From positions 1-21,594 of the IMG/VR virus record IMGVR_UViG_3300048110_000121: DNA of 21,594 nt, one strand, 5' to 3'. Positions 1,798 through 20,458 of the stretch are shown one piece after another (positions within the stretch are counted from its first letter, which is position 1; each line of letters starts with the position of its first letter). The position numbers were made by a program, and so were the translations under genes. The DNA is from a virus. The notes below the pieces were generated by a model. The model was not told the DNA's origin. It did no database searches and saw nothing but the letters and a program-made list of their open reading frames with translations.

Positions 1798-3717
1798 CTA
1801 AAATGGTTGTTTTGCGTAGTAAGCATTAATACTACCAACAGTAATCTTGCCATCTGGTCCACGCCATGGTGGATTCAGTTCGTATGCTCTAGTGCCAGGT
1901 TTATATACTTCATAGTCATCACCCCTTCTTGCATATGCAGGAGCGGCTTGCATAATACCTAACTGGCCACCTGGGTAGCTGTTTTGTACTAAGTATCTTT
2001 CATACACTTCTAATTGTTGTGCTGCAGTCATATTTCTTATTTCACCAGTTGTATGCCCTAAACCTTCTGCAGTTGATGGAATAAATTGGAAGAGACCTGC
2101 TGCATCTGTTTTTGAATTTCTGGCATTAAGAATATAATTACTCTCACCTTTTATAACTCTATATAGTTCTTCTCTTGTTAATCCAGGGAACCTAACCATC
2201 ATTGCTATAAGTCTTGCAGTAAATTCAGGATCATTATCAAGTATTTCAGCAGACAGTCTGACTTGCCGTGGTTTACTTTCTAATGCTGCTAAACCAACTG
2301 CAACAAGATCACCAGAATTTCTTCTATTAAAGTTTGCAAGTATATATTGTGGTACACTAAATCCAGGGTCCAATGCATTATGATCAACATCACTGTGACC
2401 AAAGGCTTCGCCACTTGGCCATACATCATAGAAGGATCTTATAAACATCTTAAATGATTTCATTTGCTGTGAAGTAAAACTATTTGAAGAAAGATGTTTT
2501 CGTGGATTAGGTGTTCTTGGTAAACAATCATAGCCACCAACAATACAAATGCCAATAGATTCAGCATCATTATTACCAGCTTTTGCATGATAACCTTGTC
2601 TGCCTATAGGTCTACCTCTTTGTAATCTACCATCACGTCTAATAACATAATGGTAACCAATGCCACCATCACCAGGTGTATCAAGGTGCCAGTCGTTTAT
2701 TTCTTCTGAACCAATGTCTTGTCCATTATATGTTTCGGACCAGTGTACAATTACTTTTTTAATAAGCCTACTTGTATTTCTCATCTCAGAAATCAATTCT
2801 TCAGGACCATCACAGTAAGTAAACATACCTTCAGTTGATTTACCACCAGTCCATGTAGATTCGTTATCACCAATTCTTACAGGAGGTAAAACACTACGTT
2901 TGATTTGTGAGTCTTCTTTTACCGCAACTGCTGGATCTAAATTAAGACTATTAATTGTTTTTTCTACAACTTCAACTTCTAGTTCTGTATTATCTGTTAT
3001 AAGTGTAACAGCTTCTTTCTTTTTATCATTAGTGACTAGACTAATAACTTCCTCTTTGTCTACTTTTGTACCAGATAATAAGCCATCTAATACTCTATCT
3101 GATTCTGAATTAATTTTTCTAATAAGGTTAGTGAATAGATCACCACCAAAGAAGCCTAACAGATTAGTAAAACTTACAGTAAATCTAAGAGAAGCTGAAC
3201 CAAAACCAGTTGAAAAGGAGATACCACTATTAATAGTATCGTCTATTCTACCAATAGCTCCAGCTGCACGTGCTGGTGCCAAGTTTTGTAATACACCTGT
3301 TACATCATTAGCTGTTACTGAGGCAGTTAGTTTCAGAGCACGAGCAACAGCTTCTGGTGCACCAGAACCAATAGTTAGTTTTAGTTTACCATTTGATGGT
3401 GCTGTACCAGTAATTTTTTCTAAATCTGTTGATGCACTTGAAACATCACCAATAAGTTTATCAGCTAATCCTGGGACATCTCCTGTAATCTCTACAATAG
3501 CATCTACTGCATCACCTAGTTCTTGGTTTGGTATATCTGTTGCTTGTGATAAAGCCTTTATGCCATCTACAACTGTTTCAGCCTCTGTGAGTGTAGTTTG
3601 GAATTGTGCTATTACTTGATCAGCTGCTGGTTGTGCTTTTACAAGAATGTCACCTATGTTAGAGTTTTTTGTAATACTACCTAACTGGGCATTAAGGATT
3701 CCTAGATCAACTGCCAT
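1798..3717 (-). CDS. Tail-associated amidase plus lytic transglycosylase, 639 aa
   Basis: Bifunctional peptidoglycan hydrolase expected in the baseplate. Residues 1-290 are helical and repetitive, probably structural. Residues about 318-462 match the Amidase_2/PGRP fold of T7 lysozyme and AmpD: H325 in VHWSET, GYHYVI at 355-360, H377 in GYHAKAGN, then GHSDVDHNALDPG with H441 and D450. H325, H441 and D450 are the likely zinc ligands. Residues about 500-600 match a soluble lytic transglycosylase (SLT), with catalytic E525 in KGESNY and the GLFQFIPSTA motif at 541-550. Start 3717 was preferred over an upstream in-frame ATG at 3780: it has GGAG 8 nt upstream and overlaps the preceding gene by only 11 bp. 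Located between the gp5-like lysozyme and the beta-helix gene, it likely helps the tail pierce the cell wall. Confidence 0.88.
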   Translation of the reverse strand: MAVDLGILNAQLGSITKNSNIGDILVKAQPAADQVIAQFQTTLTEAETVVDGIKALSQATDIPNQELGDAVDAIVEITGDVPGLADKLIGDVSSASTDLEKITGTAPSNGKLKLTIGSGAPEAVARALKLTASVTANDVTGVLQNLAPARAAGAIGRIDDTINSGISFSTGFGSASLRFTVSFTNLLGFFGGDLFTNLIRKINSESDRVLDGLLSGTKVDKEEVISLVTNDKKKEAVTLITDNTELEVEVVEKTINSLNLDPAVAVKEDSQIKRSVLPPVRIGDNESTWTGGKSTEGMFTYCDGPEELISEMRNTSRLIKKVIVHWSETYNGQDIGSEEINDWHLDTPGDGGIGYHYVIRRDGRLQRGRPIGRQGYHAKAGNNDAESIGICIVGGYDCLPRTPNPRKHLSSNSFTSQQMKSFKMFIRSFYDVWPSGEAFGHSDVDHNALDPGFSVPQYILANFNRRNSGDLVAVGLAALESKPRQVRLSAEILDNDPEFTARLIAMMVRFPGLTREELYRVIKGESNYILNARNSKTDAAGLFQFIPSTAEGLGHTTGEIRNMTAAQQLEVYERYLVQNSYPGGQLGIMQAAPAYARRGDDYEVYKPGTRAYELNPPWRGPDGKITVGSINAYYAKQPF

Positions 3718-4561
3718 TATATGTCTCCAAAGTTTGTCTTGCAAATGTTCTGCGTGAAGGTTTATCAGCTGCGGCTGCATTCGGTCTCTCGTAGTTATCG
3801 CAGAAGAAATCTGTAGCTTGATTAATGTTAGTCATCGCAAGAAATTCATTGTAACGATAGAAACGTGGAGCTATAGATGAAAAGTCATGTATAAAGAATT
3901 GTAACTGTGTACTGAGATTACTAATATGTAGATTTCTTTCAGCAGCAAATTCTTCAAGTTGTTGTAGTCTTCCAGCATCTGGATTCCATTGAGCAATACC
4001 ATATGAAAACTCACCTACAGCTTCTGACACAACGTGTGTTCTCATACCTGATTCTTTTAGAAAGTTTCCTATAACAGCAGAAGCGGTTATTGGTGTAAAG
4101 GTACCCATTGAAATAAGAAAGTTATATGCTTTTTGTGTATTAGAATTACCAGATAGTGCAACATCAGATACAGTCCATGGTCGAAGTTTTGGTCTAGTAC
4201 CAATATTAGGTACTGATGGATCACTTACTGCTTGAGATGAACTGCTTGGTTGACTTCTTTCTATCTTAGGTATTGAACCTACAACGCAAGGCTGTTGGGA
4301 GTTTTTACCATCCAGAAAGACACCCATCACTATCGCACCTGGTAGTAAACGCATCTGTCTACCCACACCTGATACACCACCTTCAGTAGATGGTATAGTA
4401 ACAGAAGCCCAAGGTAGTGCTGCATCGGGTACTTCATTCTTATCTTCATTATGAATACCATAAATTCTAACCTTGACTCTGCCTACCCTATAAGGATCTG
4501 CAGTATCAACAACAATTCCGGTCCACCATCTAAGGTCGTCTCCATAGAAATCAGTAATCAT
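3707..4561 (-). CDS. 5: gp5-like baseplate hub protein: OB fold plus tail lysozyme
   Basis: This 284-aa protein corresponds to the N-terminal part of T4 gp5. Residues about 10-100 form the OB-fold hub domain (RWWTGIVVDTADPYRVGRVK, then ALPWASVTIPS and GAIVMGVFLDG). A Ser/Pro linker at 103-125 follows. Residues about 141-284 resemble the phage tail lysozyme family (Phage_lysozyme2): VIGNFLKESGM with E170 as likely catalytic acid, and SYGIAQW at 186-192. T4 gp5 uses a T4 gpE-type lysozyme and carries its own C-terminal beta-helix. Here the lysozyme family differs and no beta-helix is present; that function appears to lie in the gene at 1-1786. The start overlaps the gp27-like stop as ATGA, suggesting translational coupling. 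The product should act in the periplasm during injection. Confidence 0.88.
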   Translation of the reverse strand: MITDFYGDDLRWWTGIVVDTADPYRVGRVKVRIYGIHNEDKNEVPDAALPWASVTIPSTEGGVSGVGRQMRLLPGAIVMGVFLDGKNSQQPCVVGSIPKIERSQPSSSSQAVSDPSVPNIGTRPKLRPWTVSDVALSGNSNTQKAYNFLISMGTFTPITASAVIGNFLKESGMRTHVVSEAVGEFSYGIAQWNPDAGRLQQLEEFAAERNLHISNLSTQLQFFIHDFSSIAPRFYRYNEFLAMTNINQATDFFCDNYERPNAAAADKPSRRTFARQTLETYNGS

Positions 4562-8152: not shown

Positions 8153-8737
8153 ATGAGTAAACTATTCCAAAACCTAGAAATCGAAGCATTTAAAGCTGGC
8201 ATTACACCAAGGACAGATCAGTCTCGTGAGTGGTTTCGTCAACGTGCAAGAAACATTCGTAGGGTTAATCGCGAACAGCTGATGAAAAGTAATGAGGTAA
8301 TACAAGGTAGTAAAAGTGTTATTGGTAACATGTATATGTTCTTCTATGATCCAAAGCATAAAGATACACTACCATACTACGATCAGTTCCCTCTTGTCTT
8401 TATTGTTGGTGATGCCAAGGGTGGTTTTACTGGTTTAAATCTACATTATTTGCCACCAACACTACGAGCTAAATTACTAGGATCATTAATTGATCTAAAA
8501 TCTAATGATAAGTATAATGCATCTACCAAGTTAAGACTTAGTTATGATGTTTTAAATAACTCATCTAAGCATTCACTCTTTAAGCCTTGCTTTAAACAAT
8601 ATCTTACATCTCAAGTCCGGTCTCAATTCTCTATGGTACCAGCAGCTGAATGGGAGATCGCCACATTCTTACCTATGGCTCAATGGAAGAAATCATCAAG
8701 TACACAAGTTTATAGAGATTCAAGGAAAATGGTATGA
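8153..8737 (+). CDS. Conserved T4-like virion-type protein, function unknown
   Basis: I do not recognise this 194-aa protein with certainty. The N-terminus is helical and basic (REWFRQRARNIRRVNREQL). The centre reads GNMYMFFYDPKHKD, LPYYDQFPLVFIVGD and GLNLHYLPPTLRAKLL, the kind of conserved aromatic core found in structural genes of marine T4-like phages. In T4 the genes around gp4 include gp2 (DNA end protector) and gp3 (tail completion), so a head or tail completion role is possible from position alone. No clear Shine-Dalgarno precedes the ATG. Its stop overlaps the next start as ATGA, tying it to the tube gene. Confidence 0.75.
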   Translation: MSKLFQNLEIEAFKAGITPRTDQSREWFRQRARNIRRVNREQLMKSNEVIQGSKSVIGNMYMFFYDPKHKDTLPYYDQFPLVFIVGDAKGGFTGLNLHYLPPTLRAKLLGSLIDLKSNDKYNASTKLRLSYDVLNNSSKHSLFKPCFKQYLTSQVRSQFSMVPAAEWEIATFLPMAQWKKSSSTQVYRDSRKMV

Positions 8738-9330
8738 GCTATAACGTAGAACAATTAAAATCTCTTATATCACGAAAAGGCGGTATAGCTCAAGCTAATA
8801 TGTGGAAGGTACATCTACCTCCATTGCCTGGTGTACAAAGCTCTCGTGAGTTAAATGTTTTATGTAAAGATGTACAACTTCCAGGCAGACAGATTATAAC
8901 ACAAGAGCGTGTTATCGGTATGAAGCCTAAGAAAGTTGCCTATGCATATGGTGAGGAAGATGTTGCTATGACATTCTTACTCTTAAATGATTATGGCATA
9001 AAAGAATACTTTGAAGCATGGCAGAAAATGATTATTAATTTTGACACACAAGGCATTAAATACAAAGATGATTATTGTAGAGATATTATGATCACACAGC
9101 TTGCCAAAAGAAAAAAAGATGGTATAGATATTAACTTCAACATTGATCTAAGTGCTAATTCGCTTGCCGAGATGTTTGATCTAAGTATCAGAACCGATAT
9201 AGAAATTTATAAATGTAGACTGAGACGAGCATTCCCAACAACTATGAATGCTTTACAACTTAACAATGAGCAAAACGGATTGCTTGAACTAAACGTCCAG
9301 ATGTCTTACGACAACTGGGAATCTATTTAA
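8734..9330 (+). CDS. 19: gp19-like tail tube protein
   Basis: This 198-aa protein is somewhat longer than T4 gp19 (163 aa). The segments NMWKVHLPPLPG, LCKDVQLPGRQI and KKVAYAYGEEDVAMTFLLLNDYG (read in parts), then YFEAWQKMI, are characteristic of the contractile tail tube family. C-terminal LLELNVQMSYDNWESI would form the last beta strand. It could be the major tube subunit or a minor paralogue next to the baseplate; a second copy outside the window cannot be excluded. It lies just upstream of the gp26-like chaperone and tape-measure-like genes, a standard tail gene order. Translation is probably coupled to the upstream gene by ATGA. Confidence 0.82.
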   Translation: MSYNVEQLKSLISRKGGIAQANMWKVHLPPLPGVQSSRELNVLCKDVQLPGRQIITQERVIGMKPKKVAYAYGEEDVAMTFLLLNDYGIKEYFEAWQKMIINFDTQGIKYKDDYCRDIMITQLAKRKKDGIDINFNIDLSANSLAEMFDLSIRTDIEIYKCRLRRAFPTTMNALQLNNEQNGLLELNVQMSYDNWESI

Positions 9331-9341
9331 TGGAGTAAATA

Positions 9342-10049
9342 ATGGCACTACCTAAACTAAATGATCAACCTAAGTTTGATCTTATTATCCCTTCGACAAA
9401 GAAGACAGAACGATTTAGACCCTTTCTTGTGAAAGAAGAAAAGGTTCTCTTAATTGCACTTGAGACAAATGATGAAAGAGAAATGTTATCTGCTATTGCA
9501 GAAACTATTGAAACATGTTCGATGGGTAAGATTGACAAGAATAATCTTACATCTTTTGATATTGAATATTTGTTTACTCAACTCAGAGGTAAGTCAGTTG
9601 GTGAAACAATTCAAATCAATGCTATCTGTGAACACTGTGAGGGTAAAACAGAATATAAATTAAATGTTGATAATATTGTTATGGAAGGTGGAGATGTTCC
9701 AAATATGGTACCACTTACAGATGATATTTCAATTGAATTAGAATACCCTTCATACCAAACAATTAAAGCAGAAACTAATTCAGAACAAACAGAATCAGAA
9801 GTTGCATTTGCTATGATGAGATCATGTGTTAAGGCTGTTCTTACCGAAGATTCAAGAACAGAAATGAAAGACGAAAGTCAAGCTGACGTGGATGCCTTTA
9901 TTGACTCTATGAATAGTGAACAGTTTACTAAGATTAGAGAATATGTTGAAGGTGTTCCTACCATGAAACATACTATGAATTGGACTTGTGATAGTTGTAA
10001 TAAAGACAATGAAAGAATTTTATCAGGGATACAAGCTTTTTTCTCATAG
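9342..10049 (+). CDS. 26: gp26-like baseplate hub/tail assembly protein (0-frame product)
   Basis: This 235-aa protein resembles the T4 gp26 base plate protein family. It has an N-terminal alpha/beta region (FDLIIPSTKK, FRPFLVKEEKVLLIAL, SFDIEYLFTQLRGKSVGE) and two CxxC pairs, C96/C99 in ICEHCEGK and C216/C219 in TCDSCNKDN. The two pairs probably form a zinc ribbon. The gene ends TTT TTC TCA TAG, and the last Phe codons form a slippery heptamer T TTT TTC. A fraction of ribosomes would therefore shift to -1 and add 60 residues (see 10043-10225). By position, immediately before the tape-measure-like gene, it behaves like the G component of a lambda G/GT chaperone pair. The start at 9342 is preceded by GGAG. 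Confidence 0.85.
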   Translation: MALPKLNDQPKFDLIIPSTKKTERFRPFLVKEEKVLLIALETNDEREMLSAIAETIETCSMGKIDKNNLTSFDIEYLFTQLRGKSVGETIQINAICEHCEGKTEYKLNVDNIVMEGGDVPNMVPLTDDISIELEYPSYQTIKAETNSEQTESEVAFAMMRSCVKAVLTEDSRTEMKDESQADVDAFIDSMNSEQFTKIREYVEGVPTMKHTMNWTCDSCNKDNERILSGIQAFFS

Positions 10050-10136
10050 GTCTGTCTCATAATAGTCTTGTTGCATACTACCAAACAAACTTTGCCCTAA
10101 TGCAGCATCACAAATATAGTTTGACAGAGATAGACC
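10037..10136 (+). promoter_or_regulatory. Programmed -1 ribosomal frameshift signal
   Basis: T_TTT_TTC at 10037-10043 is in the gp26 reading frame, and both tRNA-Phe species can re-pair after a one-base slip. After a 5-nt spacer, 10049-10058 (GGTCTGTCTC) pairs with 10127-10136 (GAGATAGACC) as 10 continuous pairs with one G-U. Inside that loop 10069-10076 (TGTTGCAT) pairs with 10100-10107 (ATGCAGCA) as 8 pairs with one U-G. The gp26 stop codon TAG lies at 10047-10049, at the foot of the outer stem. Frameshifting itself is inferred, not observed. Confidence 0.78.
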
Positions 10137-10225
10137 AAATGATACCATGGGAAAGAGAAGTTTATTTGGGAATGCTGACTAATTGGTTAAAAGAACAAAA
10201 ACAAGAAGCGGAACGGAATAAGTAA
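10043..10225 (+). CDS. 51: -1 frame extension of gp26, gp51-like C-terminal domain
   Basis: In the -1 frame the codons from 10043 stay open for 60 residues before TAA at 10223-10225, and the tape-measure-like ATG follows one base later. The product begins LIGLSHNSLVAYYQTNFALM and continues QHHKYSLTEIDQMIPWERE, then ends in a basic helix rich in Lys and Glu. The block with HHKYSLTEID and IPWE resembles what I recall as the short gp51 (hub assembly catalyst) entries of marine T4-like phages. An internal ATG at 10100 could start a 41-aa form, but the open and protein-like sequence upstream of it favours a gp26-gp51 fusion of 294 residues (234 + 60). There is no Shine-Dalgarno before the internal ATG. 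Confidence 0.72.
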   Translation, partial: LIGLSHNSLVAYYQTNFALMQHHKYSLTEIDQMIPWEREVYLGMLTNWLKEQKQEAERNK

Positions 10226-10226
10226 A

Positions 10227-12245
10227 ATGGCATCATCGCTCAATGATCTAGCAAAAGAAGTCCGAGGCTCACGTGTAGCCACGGAACGTGTAGCTGACAG
10301 TTTTGAAAAATGGTTTAAGACTCAAGAACGTAGTAGGCTTGATCAGTTAGAAAAAGATAGAGAAGCCAAGAAAACAGCATATCAGGCTAAAGCAGAGTCG
10401 ACACCAGCTGCAGAACCACAAGAGAAAAAACAAAATAGTTTACTTAAAGGTCTTGCAAGCCCATTAGCTGGTTTTGGTGTAGGTGCTGCAGCCAAAGGTC
10501 TTGGAGTTATGGGTGCTGGCATTGGTGCATTCTTCTTAGGTATGGCTGGAGCTGAGGCTATCATGGGCAAGTTTGCTGCAGATAGTGGCGGCGAGAATAT
10601 AAAAAACTTGATGATTAATACAGCCGAGGGTCTTAAAGCCTTTGCTGCACCAGAGATGTTAAAGTTTGGTGCTTTGTTAGCTGGTGGTGCATTATTCGGT
10701 GCTGTTGCTGGACCTAGAAGGACTGGATATGCAGCTATTGGTATGGGTGCTATGGGTTTTGGTCTAGGTGCTTTTCTTACAGGCTTTAGTGTAGCAGACT
10801 TTGCAATAGAAAAGACTGGATCTAATGGTGCTAACTTACCAATTATTGCTAAAAATATCTATGATACAATCTCTATCTTTACAAAGGATAATGTTGGGCT
10901 TGCTCTTGGAGGTTTAGTTGGAGCCGGTGGTCTTCTAGGCGCTGCAGTAGGTGGTGGTAGACGTGGTGCTTTAGGTCTAGTAAGAGGCGCCAGTGGAATG
11001 ATTGGCTCTAATATGGTTACCTTTGGTATTGGTGCAGCACTTGGTTCTTTCTTCGCTGGCTTTGCTGCAGTTGATTCAGGAACAGAAAAGATAGGCGACG
11101 GCAGCACAATTAAGAAAGTGGCAGAGAATTTAAAAGGAACCCTTGAAGTATTTAAAGATATGACATGGATCACACCTCTCATAGCCGCTGGTGGGATCTT
11201 AGGTGCTGTTGCTGGTGGAACTGGTGGTGGATTATTGGCTGCTGGTGGAGCTGTCGTAGGTGCTAATATGGTAACCTTTGGTATTGGTGCTGCAATTGGT
11301 GCATTCTTTGCTGGCTTTGCGGCTGTAGATGGCGTTACCGCATATCTAACTGGAGATTCCAATGGTGAGGGTTTAAGAGCCACTGCTAAAAGTATGGCTG
11401 CATCACTAACAGAGTTAGGTGAGATTAATGCCGAAAAGGTTACTGCTGCTGCTGGTGCTATTAGTGCCATGGGCGGTGCTATGTTTAAGTTTTTTGGAGC
11501 CCAAGGTCTAGGTACTGTTACCAGTCTAGGTGACGCAGGTCTTACTGCACTTAAAAATGTATGGAATTGGATTACAGGTAAAGAAGAAACCACAGAAGCC
11601 ACAGGACCAATAGCAAACATTTTAAAAGCAATGGCTCCTCTTGAATCATTAAACGAGAACACTATTACAAATGCCAATACATTAAGTGAAGCCCTTGATA
11701 AATTATTTACATCATTTAGCAATATTGCGTCAATTGGATCTGTAGGCAATTTTGGAAAAAATATGGCTTCAATGGTTAATGATTTAGGTTTTGTGCTTAA
11801 TGTTTTACCTGCTCTTATTAATGGTGGTAAAGTTATGGATGGTACACAAAACTGGTTATCAGGTATCCTTGGTACTGATAGAGGTGTTGTTGCTGACTTT
11901 GGTGGAGGTCTTAAAAATCTTAAAGCTGAAGATTTAAAAACACTTAAGGAAGGTGTCGATGGTTTATATAAGGCATTAGGTGTACAAGTACCACCAGTAC
12001 CAACAGCTGAGCCTATATCAGATGTAGAAAAACAATTAGAACCAGCTATGAAAACATTAGACGCAGTAGTAAGCGAAATAAGAGAAAAACGAGCTCAAGC
12101 AGGCGCTAATATTGTTGATGCATCTTCAGTAGTTACAAACATAGAAGGCGCTAAACAGATAAACATTCAGAATGAAAAAGGTTCTTCTGTAGCCACTGCA
12201 GATGAAGCAATTGGTTGGTCAAATGAATACCAACGATTCATGTAA
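10227..12245 (+). CDS. Tape-measure-like / gp29-like hub protein, 672 aa
   Basis: The gene has the size, composition and position of a tail tape measure (T4 gp29 is about 590 aa). Residues 1-70 are charged and helical. Residues 75-370 are Gly/Ala-rich hydrophobic segments arranged as four related units; their core (AFFLGMAGAEA, AFLTGFSVADF, SFFAGFAAVDS, AFFAGFAAVDG) recurs at about 101, 182, 274 and 359. Residues 400-672 are soluble helices with a long terminal helix (LEPAMKTLDAVVSEIREKRA). The hydrophobic segments would suit membrane penetration during DNA ejection. Spacing after the gp51-like stop is one base. The only visible ribosome signal is CGGAAT within that frame, so coupling to the frameshift product is likely. 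A strong hairpin terminator follows directly. Confidence 0.75.
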   Translation: MASSLNDLAKEVRGSRVATERVADSFEKWFKTQERSRLDQLEKDREAKKTAYQAKAESTPAAEPQEKKQNSLLKGLASPLAGFGVGAAAKGLGVMGAGIGAFFLGMAGAEAIMGKFAADSGGENIKNLMINTAEGLKAFAAPEMLKFGALLAGGALFGAVAGPRRTGYAAIGMGAMGFGLGAFLTGFSVADFAIEKTGSNGANLPIIAKNIYDTISIFTKDNVGLALGGLVGAGGLLGAAVGGGRRGALGLVRGASGMIGSNMVTFGIGAALGSFFAGFAAVDSGTEKIGDGSTIKKVAENLKGTLEVFKDMTWITPLIAAGGILGAVAGGTGGGLLAAGGAVVGANMVTFGIGAAIGAFFAGFAAVDGVTAYLTGDSNGEGLRATAKSMAASLTELGEINAEKVTAAAGAISAMGGAMFKFFGAQGLGTVTSLGDAGLTALKNVWNWITGKEETTEATGPIANILKAMAPLESLNENTITNANTLSEALDKLFTSFSNIASIGSVGNFGKNMASMVNDLGFVLNVLPALINGGKVMDGTQNWLSGILGTDRGVVADFGGGLKNLKAEDLKTLKEGVDGLYKALGVQVPPVPTAEPISDVEKQLEPAMKTLDAVVSEIREKRAQAGANIVDASSVVTNIEGAKQINIQNEKGSSVATADEAIGWSNEYQRFM

Positions 12246-17631: not shown

Positions 17632-18036
17632 TTAATCCTCGAATGTTAGTTCTTTAAGTTGCTGTAACTCTTTCTCGAGTTTCATAACTTCTAATTGTTT
17701 CTTTCTTAATTCCAATTCATATAATCTGTTACAATCAATTCTTGATTTAGTTCTCTTACCAAGTGGTATTGTTATTCTAGCAAATACACCTACATCAGTT
17801 TGTTGACCTACAGTAAAATCTCTTTGAGGATCATAATACTCTTTATCAATAATACCAGTTACACCAAACTCTAAGTTTGTTGCTGATCCAATTGCATTAG
17901 TACAATCTAGTTCACCGGCTCTAAACTTGTCCGATTGATAATTACCACCAGATCCTGGCAATTGTAAGTTTAATGATGATGAATCAGCGTGTGCTGAAAC
18001 TCCAATCATAATAAACAATAGTGTTAGTATTCTCAT
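17632..18036 (-). CDS. Secreted protein with C-terminal coiled coil, 134 aa
   Basis: A clear signal peptide (MRILTLLFIMIGVSAHA, cleavage likely before DSSS) precedes a Gly/Ser-rich segment (LNLQLPGSGGNYQSDKFRAG). A beta-rich domain with two cysteines follows (ELDCTNAIGSATNLEFGVTG; VFARITIPLGKRTKSRIDC). The end is a charged helix (LELRKKQLEVMKLEKELQQL). From memory similar secreted proteins exist in marine T4-like phages, without known function. Export to the periplasm or outer membrane is expected. Position between the chaperone-like and coiled-coil genes suggests it is part of the same envelope assembly. Confidence 0.76.
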   Translation of the reverse strand: MRILTLLFIMIGVSAHADSSSLNLQLPGSGGNYQSDKFRAGELDCTNAIGSATNLEFGVTGIIDKEYYDPQRDFTVGQQTDVGVFARITIPLGKRTKSRIDCNRLYELELRKKQLEVMKLEKELQQLKELTFED

Positions 18037-18044
18037 ATGTCATC

Positions 18045-18422
18045 TCACTTTACTCTCGAACAAATCCTTGATTTAATTCCTGTCGATTGCACATCTTGTT
18101 TCAATTGCTTAGAAGTGGTACAGATATAAGTTACCTTGTCACAATCAGCATCTCTTACATACAACTCAAAAGATTTATGTTCCAGATACCCTATCTTCAT
18201 AACTTTCTCTGGTGCTGCAAATGGTACTGATTTCCATTCATCATCATACACATTTATTTCGTAATAACTTGCATCACTTCGTCTATTCCACATCTTCATT
18301 TTTATAACTGATACACCTTCAACATAAGCTGGTTCTATCTCAGGATAGGTTGGTGTCAGTTCATGAGCTGCGGCACTATTAGCAAATAGTATTAGCGCCG
18401 CAGCGAATTTATATTTCATCAT
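18045..18422 (-). CDS. Secreted fimbrial-chaperone-like beta-sandwich protein, 125 aa
   Basis: Signal peptide MMKYKFAAALILFANSAAA, cleavage before HELTP. The mature part (about 106 residues) reads like one immunoglobulin-type domain: VSVIKMKMWNRRSDASYYEI, VYDDEWKSVPFAAPEKVMKIG, KSFELYVRDA, then VTYICTTSKQ and SRICSRVK. The pattern of paired strands, a mid-domain Pro, and a C-terminal Cys-Ser resembles the N-terminal domain of PapD-like periplasmic chaperones, but it is shorter than a full chaperone (two domains). This is a resemblance, not a firm assignment. The neighbour at 18520-19029 looks like a fimbrial subunit, its possible partner. Confidence 0.72.
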   Translation of the reverse strand: MMKYKFAAALILFANSAAAHELTPTYPEIEPAYVEGVSVIKMKMWNRRSDASYYEINVYDDEWKSVPFAAPEKVMKIGYLEHKSFELYVRDADCDKVTYICTTSKQLKQDVQSTGIKSRICSRVK

Positions 18423-18447
18423 CTTAATATTCTACCTTCGTACAGTT

Positions 18448-18519
18448 TTACGGACACCCACCTAGCCTTCTACACGTCATACTGCCGCTGGAGCTACTGG
18501 ATGAACTACTGCCACCATT
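18448..18519 (-). other. In-frame open extension after the UGA stop of 18520-19029
   Basis: Directly after TGA (18520-18522) the same frame stays open for 23 codons to TAA 18448-18450. It encodes Asn-Gly-Gly, eight serines, Gly-Ser, then MTCRRLGGCP. A Ser-rich linker plus a two-cysteine tail is protein-like and unlike the AT-rich intergenic sequence elsewhere. It could be read by UGA readthrough or mark a recently shortened gene. Confidence 0.45.
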
Positions 18520-19029
18520 TCAATCTGCGATACACTCAGCAACTACGTTAGCTTTGTATTCGCCACCTGGTAGTGATTTACCAACACCATACTTAGCTTC
18601 TGACTCAACTGAGAACCATGTAGATCCTGCAAGTGTTAAATCAAACTCTGTTACGTTGTCGTACTCTACTTTAGCTGCTTCATAAGCAGACATACCTGAT
18701 ACAGAATGGCTCTTAACTGTTGTTTCTCCATCCCAGTTTACTCCATCTGAAAGATTAGGTGCTGTTGAGAATGAGTTAGGCCAAGAAATCTTAGCTTTAT
18801 ATTTGTCAGCAACTGTAACATCATAACGGACTACTGGATCTATACCACCGTCAGCTGTTTTAGTGCTTAGTTCATCAGGTGTAGGGTTACCATACACACC
18901 AGATGTGTCTGTGAAAATTGAACATTTAGATGATACGTTGCCAGTAATTGGTGTGTTGTTAGCTTGAGCAATTGCCCCTACTGAACACACAACACCGATA
19001 GCACCTAAAGTTAGTGTTTGTTTGAACAT
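18520..19029 (-). CDS. Secreted pilin/fimbrial-subunit-like protein, 169 aa
   Basis: Signal peptide MFKQTLTLGAIGVVCSVGAIAQA, cleavage before NNTP. The mature protein is predicted all-beta, with one cysteine near the start (NVSSKCSIFTDTSGVYG) and one near the end (GGEYKANVVAECIAD). A G-x-Y-x-A-x-V strand precedes the final Cys, as in fimbrial subunit and spore-coat-U-like beta sandwiches. No catalytic motif. Start 19029 has AGGAGT about 5 nt upstream, lying across the stop of the preceding gene. The family call is by pattern only. The frame after UGA continues (see 18448-18519). Expected location is the periplasm or cell/virion surface. Confidence 0.75.
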   Translation of the reverse strand: MFKQTLTLGAIGVVCSVGAIAQANNTPITGNVSSKCSIFTDTSGVYGNPTPDELSTKTADGGIDPVVRYDVTVADKYKAKISWPNSFSTAPNLSDGVNWDGETTVKSHSVSGMSAYEAAKVEYDNVTEFDLTLAGSTWFSVESEAKYGVGKSLPGGEYKANVVAECIAD

Positions 19030-19032
19030 AAG

Positions 19033-19947
19033 TTACTCCTGTTGTTCTTTATTATATTGCGACCGAACCATTGACTGATGTTTTGTATCAGTCGCAAAGC
19101 TCCGCATCGCACGAGGGTTGTCAGGTATATCTGTACTTTCAAATTGTAACACATCGTTATATTCACCACCTGGTATTGTTATTATATAGTAAGGCTCAAT
19201 TTTTGGCACTTGTGCCAGAGCTGCCAATATAGAAGCTTGTTCTGTAGTATTAACCATTTCATCAATTGAACTTTCTGCTCCCATTCTTTTTTCAAAGTTA
19301 GCTTCTTCCTCTTCAGGTTCTTCTACTTCGATTTCTTCTTTAGTTTCTACTTCCTCATCTAATGATAAGTTAGCTTGTACCCATTCATCATAAAAAGGAT
19401 CGTCTGCTGTAGGCTCTTCCATAGTATTTAGATAATTTAGAAGCGCATCATCAAATCCAGGGCATTGAGGATCAGCTAATGGTGTTAGATAACACTTCTG
19501 AAGCTCTTCATCAATGACTTGTCTGTAATTATAAACCATAAAAGGATCTTCAATCTGACCATCGCCTTCTACAGACATTGATCCATTACCCCATCTTGAG
19601 GAATCTATATACGGAAATCTAAAATATTTCTGTACTGTACCTCCAGGAATTCCATCCCAATCATCTACTTCTTCAAACACATAACCACCATTTACTGCAT
19701 CTTCATTACGCACATAAACTGTAGCATCCGCACTTGGATCCTTAACCATTTTATACCTATACGTCAGACCATGGATCTGTACGCTAATATAAGGGCCACT
19801 TGTGTCAGGTAAGATAGTTCCCATACCCCAAGATAGGCCAGCTATGGCTGCGTTAGTTGTTCCTCCGTACGTCGTATCAGAGTAACAGTAGGAGGAGGAG
19901 ACCCCCAACAGTAGCGCCGCCAAATAAAGTTGATTTCTCATCTTCAT
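19033..19947 (-). CDS. Secreted protein, 304 aa, marine phage type, unknown function
   Basis: Signal peptide MKMRNQLYLAALLLGVSSS precedes a mature protein with a Trp/Gly-rich beta domain (GLSWGMGTILPDTSG, YISVQIHGLTYRYKMVKD, VYVRNEDAVNGGYVFEE, WDGIPGGTVQKYFRFPY, WGNGSMSVEGDG). An acidic low-complexity linker at about 195-225 (EEVETKEEIEVEEPEEEE) leads to a small C-terminal domain (PYYIITIPGGEYNDVLQFES). Three cysteines, one near the signal end and two in QKCYLTPLADPQCPG. Start 19947 was chosen for AAAGGA 6 nt upstream. Its first 71 nt overlap the end of the preceding gene in another frame. Role unknown; likely part of the same surface or envelope assembly. Confidence 0.78.
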   Translation of the reverse strand: MKMRNQLYLAALLLGVSSSYCYSDTTYGGTTNAAIAGLSWGMGTILPDTSGPYISVQIHGLTYRYKMVKDPSADATVYVRNEDAVNGGYVFEEVDDWDGIPGGTVQKYFRFPYIDSSRWGNGSMSVEGDGQIEDPFMVYNYRQVIDEELQKCYLTPLADPQCPGFDDALLNYLNTMEEPTADDPFYDEWVQANLSLDEEVETKEEIEVEEPEEEEANFEKRMGAESSIDEMVNTTEQASILAALAQVPKIEPYYIITIPGGEYNDVLQFESTDIPDNPRAMRSFATDTKHQSMVRSQYNKEQQE

Positions 19948-20458
19948 CTAAGTCCTTTAAAGGGTTGAGTGAACCAGTATCTGTGTCTGGTTGTAATTCT
20001 TTATTTGCCAACCATGCTGCCTTTGCTTCAGCACCAATCTTACCATCAAATGGGCAAGGAGTACCTGCATTCATCATAGCATCAAAGACACGTTCATCTT
20101 GGCACATTACTGAAACAGCTGCCACCTTCATACCCATATCATATAATACCTTAGCATTCTTTAGCTTCTCACAGTTCATATCACGAACCATCTTACCAGC
20201 TGAAATACCAAGTATCTGAGTTTGAACAGCACCCGTCACACCTGTAGTACAGAGGTCAGAGTTAGCAGAATTGATTGAGGGGGAAATAGCAGAAGGTGGA
20301 GGTGACTTAACAGTCGTTGTAGATCGACTTGTGCTATCTACAGTGCTATCATTGGTATTATCTGTGTAGATAATATCATCTGTCGCATCTTGTGCATGTA
20401 AAGTATTAGCGGCAATTAGAAAGATCAAAACCGCTAGGTAACCTAGTCGTTGTAACAT
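19877..20458 (-). CDS. Secreted protein with C-terminal oligo-leucine tail, 193 aa
   Basis: First gene of the late secreted operon. Signal peptide MLQRLGYLAVLIFLIAANTLHA precedes a Ser/Thr/Asp-rich linker and VKSPPPSAISPSINSANSD. A folded domain follows with four cysteines (SDLC, RDMNC, SVMC, TPC): GAVQTQILGISAGKMVRDM, KVAAVSVMCQDERVFDAMMN and CPFDGKIGAEA. The C-terminus is GGATVGGLLLLLLL, a short hydrophobic tail that could anchor it in a membrane. The PPPSAISPS block is familiar from conserved unknown proteins of marine T4-like phages, by memory only. No catalytic motif seen. The start follows a perfect late promoter by 35 nt. Confidence 0.8.
   Translation of the reverse strand: MLQRLGYLAVLIFLIAANTLHAQDATDDIIYTDNTNDSTVDSTSRSTTTVKSPPPSAISPSINSANSDLCTTGVTGAVQTQILGISAGKMVRDMNCEKLKNAKVLYDMGMKVAAVSVMCQDERVFDAMMNAGTPCPFDGKIGAEAKAAWLANKELQPDTDTGSLNPLKDLDEDEKSTLFGGATVGGLLLLLLL

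Follow-up and report, generated by a model that had tools for sequence, protein, structure and literature searches.

The gp26 gene and the frame at its 3' end

We analyzed 21,594 nucleotides of viral DNA (IMG/VR virus record IMGVR_UViG_3300048110_000121, positions 1 to 21,594; hereafter the window), a marine phage contig, with respect to gene gp26 and a second reading frame at its end that encodes a gp51-like domain. The gp26 product matched PF12322 (T4_baseplate) with 179 bits, above the curated cut-off of 24.5. The 3' end of the gene reads GCT_TTT_TTC_TCA_TAG and carries a slippery heptamer. The peptide encoded in the -1 frame matched phrog_634 ("baseplate hub assembly catalyst") with an E-value of 3.9e-27. 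The predicted shifted product reads ...GIQAFF-LIGLSHNSLVAYYQTNFALMQHHKYSLTEIDQMIPWEREVYLGMLTNWLKEQKQEAERNK, and its stop codon TAA is located one base ahead of the ATG at 10227. All features of the locus are listed in Table 1.

A sequence-only reading of the window had described a heptamer in the gp26 frame, followed by TAG and by a -1 frame open to one base before the next start, and all of these elements were confirmed at positions 10037-10225. It had also named the ATG at 10100 as the only one of the -1 frame; this was wrong, as it is the first of three (10100, 10139, and 10172). Between the slip site and 10100, which lies 21 codons past it, the -1 frame contains no ATG, GTG, or TTG.

Table 1. 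Features of the gp26 locus (open reading frame, ORF; tail assembly chaperone, TAC)
Feature	Position	Strand	Basis
Tail tube-like protein, directly upstream of gp26	8734..9330	+	phrog_45 tail tube, E 2.6e-31
gp26 ORF, frame-0 product, candidate short TAC, 235 amino acids	9342..10049	+	PF12322, phrog_150
Possible stimulator, Shine-Dalgarno-like AGGG located 8 nt ahead of the slip site	10025..10028	+	codon skew in relatives
Slippery heptamer T_TTT_TTC, in gp26 frame	10037..10043	+	sequence; relatives
-1 frame, predicted C-terminal, gp51-like domain of the long form; ends with TAA at 10223-10225	10037..10225	+	phrog_634
Frame-0 stop TAG of gp26	10047..10049	+	sequence
672-amino-acid protein, candidate tape measure, starts 1 base after the -1 ORF	10227..12245	+	position; equivalents in some relatives

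Conservation of the heptamer and change of the frame under selection

A tblastn search with the -1 peptide returned 570 records from phages of Synechococcus, Prochlorococcus, Vibrio, Rhizobium, Sinorhizobium, Pseudomonas, and other hosts; among the matches listed the alignment nearly always started with residue 1, on the slip-site FF. From the relatives 98 loci were parsed, 80 of them non-redundant, including every locus that the -1 domain retrieved from IMG/VR. The parser sought a T run, so that counts refer to loci where the -1 domain follows one; furthermore, the 80 relatives are related by descent and are not independent samples, hence no combined probability is given. An in-register T_TTT_TTN was present at all 80 non-redundant loci (N being C in 45, T in 24, A in 10, and G in one); the check proposed with the sequence-only reading, whether heptamer and -1 ORF are conserved in related phages, thus came out in its favor. 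Elsewhere in these gp26 genes, an in-frame T_TTT_TTN occurred at only 12 of 18,853 codon positions; conservation of the heptamer is therefore more than chance. The P-site codon is invariably TTT, with TTC making up 29% of the Phe codons elsewhere in gp26, and the codon ahead of it encodes S, D, N, or A, always with T as third base. Ten loci have TTA (Leu) in the A site, which alters the amino acid and keeps the slipperiness. The frame-0 stop falls 2 to 11 codons past the start of the P-site codon.

Exceptions are the Ackermannviridae (phiMAM1, Bue1, and Vibrio 1.244.A) and Cygsa01, where the -1 frame is open and the site is NTT_TTY instead of T_TTT_TTN. The homologues from this group (loci L120, L122, L123, and L104) show GTT_TTC, CTT_TTT, or ATT_TTC at the site, with a TAATG overlap in two.

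The ratio of nonsynonymous to synonymous polymorphism (pN/pS) was computed for each frame over 75 aligned loci. Within the last 40 codons of gp26, frame 0 showed a pN/pS of 0.59 and no stops, and frame -1 contained 438 stops in 3000 codons. Between the slip site and the first conserved ATG, frame -1 showed a pN/pS of 0.34 and no stop in 1425 codons; pN/pS of the other frames was 1.4-1.9, with 164-192 stops (11-13%). Protein-level selection thus changes frame at the heptamer. The purifying selection in frame -1 indicates that the 19 codons ahead of the first conserved ATG are translated, as had been proposed from the letters of the window. At most loci this conserved Met, about 21 codons in, is the first start codon past the slip site; upstream of the slip site, frame -1 contains no ATG, GTG, or TTG at 76 of the 80 loci, and at seven of the 80 its stop codon directly abuts the slip site. 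The -1 extension is thus kept as protein without a start of its own. Taken together, the 80 heptamers and the frame switch support a programmed -1 frameshift that joins gp26 and the gp51-like domain.

Alternatively, the -1 domain might be a separate small protein with its own initiation, for example because ribosomes terminate at the gp26 stop and reinitiate there, or because they begin at an internal start codon. Public annotations list it as a gene of its own, and in several distant relatives a start codon overlaps the frame-0 stop, as TAATG in VH7D, Cygsa01, and Vibrio 1.244.A, or as TGATG in RHph_Y68, Atu_ph04, PhiW-14, and phiN3. Reinitiation could supply a free C-terminal domain in these lineages; however, T_TTT_TTN is retained in most of them. 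For the window, the conserved heptamer, the frame switch, and the lack of an upstream start at nearly all loci make an independent start very unlikely, since the codons before 10100 are under purifying selection across relatives and offer nothing to initiate from. We consider this account very improbable as a whole and reject it. An upstream gp51 start of its own, which the sequence-only reading had named as evidence against a fusion, was lacking at 76 of 80 loci, and the overlapping starts of several distant lineages are the part that counts against it.

Codon usage ahead of the slip site was skewed in the relatives. The Glu codon was GAG in 28 of 39 cases as compared to a background of 26%, and the Gly codon was GGG in 18 of 79 as compared to 4.6%; this skew amounts to a Shine-Dalgarno-like GAGGG about 9 nt ahead of the slip site. 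RNA folding downstream of the slip site was on average stronger in the relatives (mean z -1.10) than in control windows (-0.23). A conserved downstream RNA structure was considered as stimulator and rejected, as strong stem-loops were found in some lineages (S-PM2 and the TTTTTTA group) but not in the window.

The T run itself, which comprises six to seven or slightly more residues in all relatives, would also permit the long form to arise by transcriptional slippage instead of ribosomal frameshifting. Productive transcriptional slippage usually needs about nine or more A or T; the run is six in most relatives and interrupted by C, A, or G, and it stands in the exact X_XXY_YYZ register with Shine-Dalgarno-like enrichment upstream. 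We rate this explanation as slightly less probable still. Homopolymer runs are prone to error, but that one ordinary fused gene was split by a sequencing or assembly error is hardly credible, because many isolates and contigs, each sequenced independently, share the same frame break, followed within a few codons by a frame-0 stop.

Relation to T4 genes 26 and 51

T4 gp26 (208 amino acids) and T4 gp51 (249 amino acids) each matched PF12322 and phrog_150. A profile of the frame-0 part of gp26 matched both gp26 and gp51 of the T4 type. A profile built solely from -1 peptides matched the C-terminus of gp51 in seven of seven T4-type phages and gp26 in none of the seven. T4 gp51 scored 21.1 bits with this profile as compared to a maximum of 10.1 bits among 1400 shuffled sequences; the weakest gp51 match, AM101 with 9.9 bits, was no better than this shuffled maximum. 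T4 gp26 terminates with ...GLKEFFELL, at the position of the slip site. The sequence-only reading had linked the T4 pair to a frameshift system, and this link was supported; the -1 domain, however, corresponds only to the last approximately 50 residues of T4 gp51, which also holds a complete gp26-like domain. Judged by these matches, T4 gp26 and gp51 are a short and a long paralogue and not two halves, since gp51 combines the full gp26-like domain with a -1-type domain.

One PF12322 gene per genome was found in 10 of 10 phages of the frameshift type, among which Cygsa01 is counted despite its degenerate site, and two were found in six of six T4-type phages. Because gp51 is a full-length paralogue and one gene stands against two, gene duplication appears to have taken the place of frameshifting in T4. 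In an unrooted tree, in which the gp26 rows of RB43 and Aeromonas 31 are long and unsure, the frameshift type was separated from T4-type gp26 and gp51 (support 100/98), and gp51 formed a single clade (100/100). VH7D, a member of the Straboviridae like T4, has a single frameshift gene, which argues for frameshifting as the older state. No leftover heptamer was seen by eye at the equivalent place in T4 genes 26 and 51. In RB43, the long gp51 gene and the short gp26 gene share a strand, arranged in tandem and overlapping at their ends (L101:3001-4294); the T4 pair is divergent.

A wider scenario may tentatively be drawn from these comparisons, although we hold it to be somewhat less probable than its negation. 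Single-gene frameshifting at T_TTT_TTN would be ancestral across many T4-related and more distant lineages, namely Kyanoviridae, Schizotequatrovirus, Pootjesviridae, Emdodecavirus, Chakrabartyvirus, and Ionavirus, and would have been replaced once by duplication in T4-type Straboviridae. The tandem 51-26 arrangement of RB43 would then be a possible surviving intermediate, and the Ackermannviridae, with a -1 frame and a degenerate NTT_TTY or an overlapping start, would suggest a third route to the long form.

A probable tail assembly chaperone in two forms and its known counterparts

An AlphaFold2 model of gp26 was confident, with a predicted local distance difference test score (pLDDT) of 93.5. 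Of all chains compared, the one that aligned best with its N-terminal domain was the HK97 TAC 2ob9 (VIA-align Z 7.1, 85 of 107 residues, root mean square deviation 3.6), the next one reaching 4.8; this likeness of the model is suggestive, not proof. A PDB sequence search with the gp26 profile returned nothing credible. The virion proteome of S-CREM2 lacks the gp26/gp51 homologues gp206 and gp207 and contains the two downstream products gp208 and gp209 (PMC10665884 Table 3). A review from 2010 counts gp26 and gp51 among the hub assembly chaperones and describes T4 gp51 as essential, of unknown function, and absent from the particle; the same review also cites reports of gp26 in the hub (PMC3004832). 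At least one GenBank record, that of AM101, already uses the name "tape measure protein assembly chaperone" for the gp26 and gp51 of a T4-type phage.

The equivalent of the 672-amino-acid neighbor matched tape-measure PHROGs in VH7D (1.1e-8), phiN3 (3.5e-5), L048 (7.8e-7), and L087 (3.1e-12). Position and these matches in some relatives make the neighbor a plausible but unproven tape measure. It contains hydrophobic stretches rich in glycine, and an internal repeat occurs in two nearly identical copies, IGSNMVTFGIGAALGSFFAGFAAVD at residue 259 and VGANMVTFGIGAAIGAFFAGFAAVD at residue 344. Tail length, taken as approximately 0.15 nm per residue, served as a further test; it fits S-H34 and S-N03 (936 and 933 amino acids, tails of 129 and 138 nm) and fails for S-CREM2, where 1565 and 1456 amino acids face a tail of 418 nm and a virion protein of approximately 2668 amino acids is encoded elsewhere. 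In S-PM2, the protein adjoining the frameshift pair (L093:4182-7685) showed a weak ADP-ribosyltransferase-like match (PF01129, 1.3e-5) and a tail lysozyme domain (7e-25).

The gp26 model, the 2ob9 alignment, the tail-tube neighbor, the tape-measure matches of relatives, the S-CREM2 proteome, and the review combined make a short and a long TAC the best explanation of the locus. We put the probability that programmed -1 frameshifting yields a short form, gp26, and a long form, gp26-51, of a TAC at about 0.9. The majority of ribosomes would read gp26 through to the TAG and release the short form. Some would slip back by one base at T_TTT_TTC, where each of the two Phe tRNAs could re-pair with a TTT; these ribosomes would read past the stop and append a 60-residue helical domain. 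If the locus works like lambda G/GT and HK97 gp13/gp14, the unfolded tape measure would be coated by the short form, and the extra domain may dock the complex for tube assembly. T4-type phages would make the same two forms from paralogous genes, the short gene 26 and the long gene 51.

Several results weigh against this interpretation. A Z of 7.1 lies below 8, where such scores become safe, and Foldseek alone gave 2ob9 an E-value of 4.0. The model of a T4-type gp51 did not return 2ob9, nor any structural match above Z 3.8. The 672-amino-acid neighbor yielded no tape-measure match among the PHROGs (E ≤ 0.1) and no credible family match; of the earlier proposal of a chaperone for a tape-measure-like protein, the chaperone was supported, and the neighbor stays a candidate for its client. 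The stem-loop downstream of the slip site is weak in the window (z -0.85), and a strong one is absent from most relatives.

Elsewhere in the window, two tail hub proteins are encoded at 1798-4561 (- strand) that between them hold several domains for cleaving peptidoglycan; one is gp5-like and includes a lysozyme-like part, the other has an amidase and an SLT transglycosylase domain. Short ORFs follow one another at 17632-20458 (- strand). Several appear by eye to have N-terminal signal peptides, for example 18045-18422, 18520-19029, and 19033-19947, and a Pfam scan of these ORFs gave no matches.

Among known systems, gp26 may resemble the HK97 TAC, 2ob9 being the best, though only suggestive, PDB match of its N-terminal domain. 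As compared to the TACs of lambda and HK97, gp26 is longer and carries an extra beta-rich region that often bears Cys. The slippery site of lambda is G_GGA_AAG, as compared to T_TTT_TTN in the gp26 family. The findings suggest what gp51 may concretely do. In many phage records the -1 domain appears as a gene of its own, "baseplate hub assembly catalyst", whose annotated start often falls within the conserved domain, so that the true junction is missed.

Frameshifting in this family and its replacement by two genes in T4 were already described in 2022, according to the papers that cite this work, and the locus is a well-supported further example. As cited there, TAC-N genes of T4-like phages contain polyT -1 slippery sites (PMC12846349, citing Vladimirov et al. 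2022), and some T4-like phages do without frameshifting and have one short TAC gene plus one longer fusion gene (PMC10885494, citing Vladimirov, Gautam and Davidson, Virology 2022, 566:9-15). The T4-like TAC genes so described very probably belong to the same protein family as gp26, the window adding a frameshift-type contig from a marine phage. The TAC locus of Vandenendeviridae/Andersonviridae (phage Adele) likewise shows a conserved -1 frameshift, at the polyT motif GTTTTT, and an unbroken -1 frame between TAC-N and tape measure (PMC12846349); phage families and motif differ from those of the window, and the two loci are likened by layout, not by protein homology. Genes 26 and 51 of T4 (Straboviridae) both belong to PF12322, like gp26 of the window, but they are two genes and need no frameshift. 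The contrast between a single frameshifted gene and a pair of genes that need no shift is a natural experiment on why recoding persists in phages.
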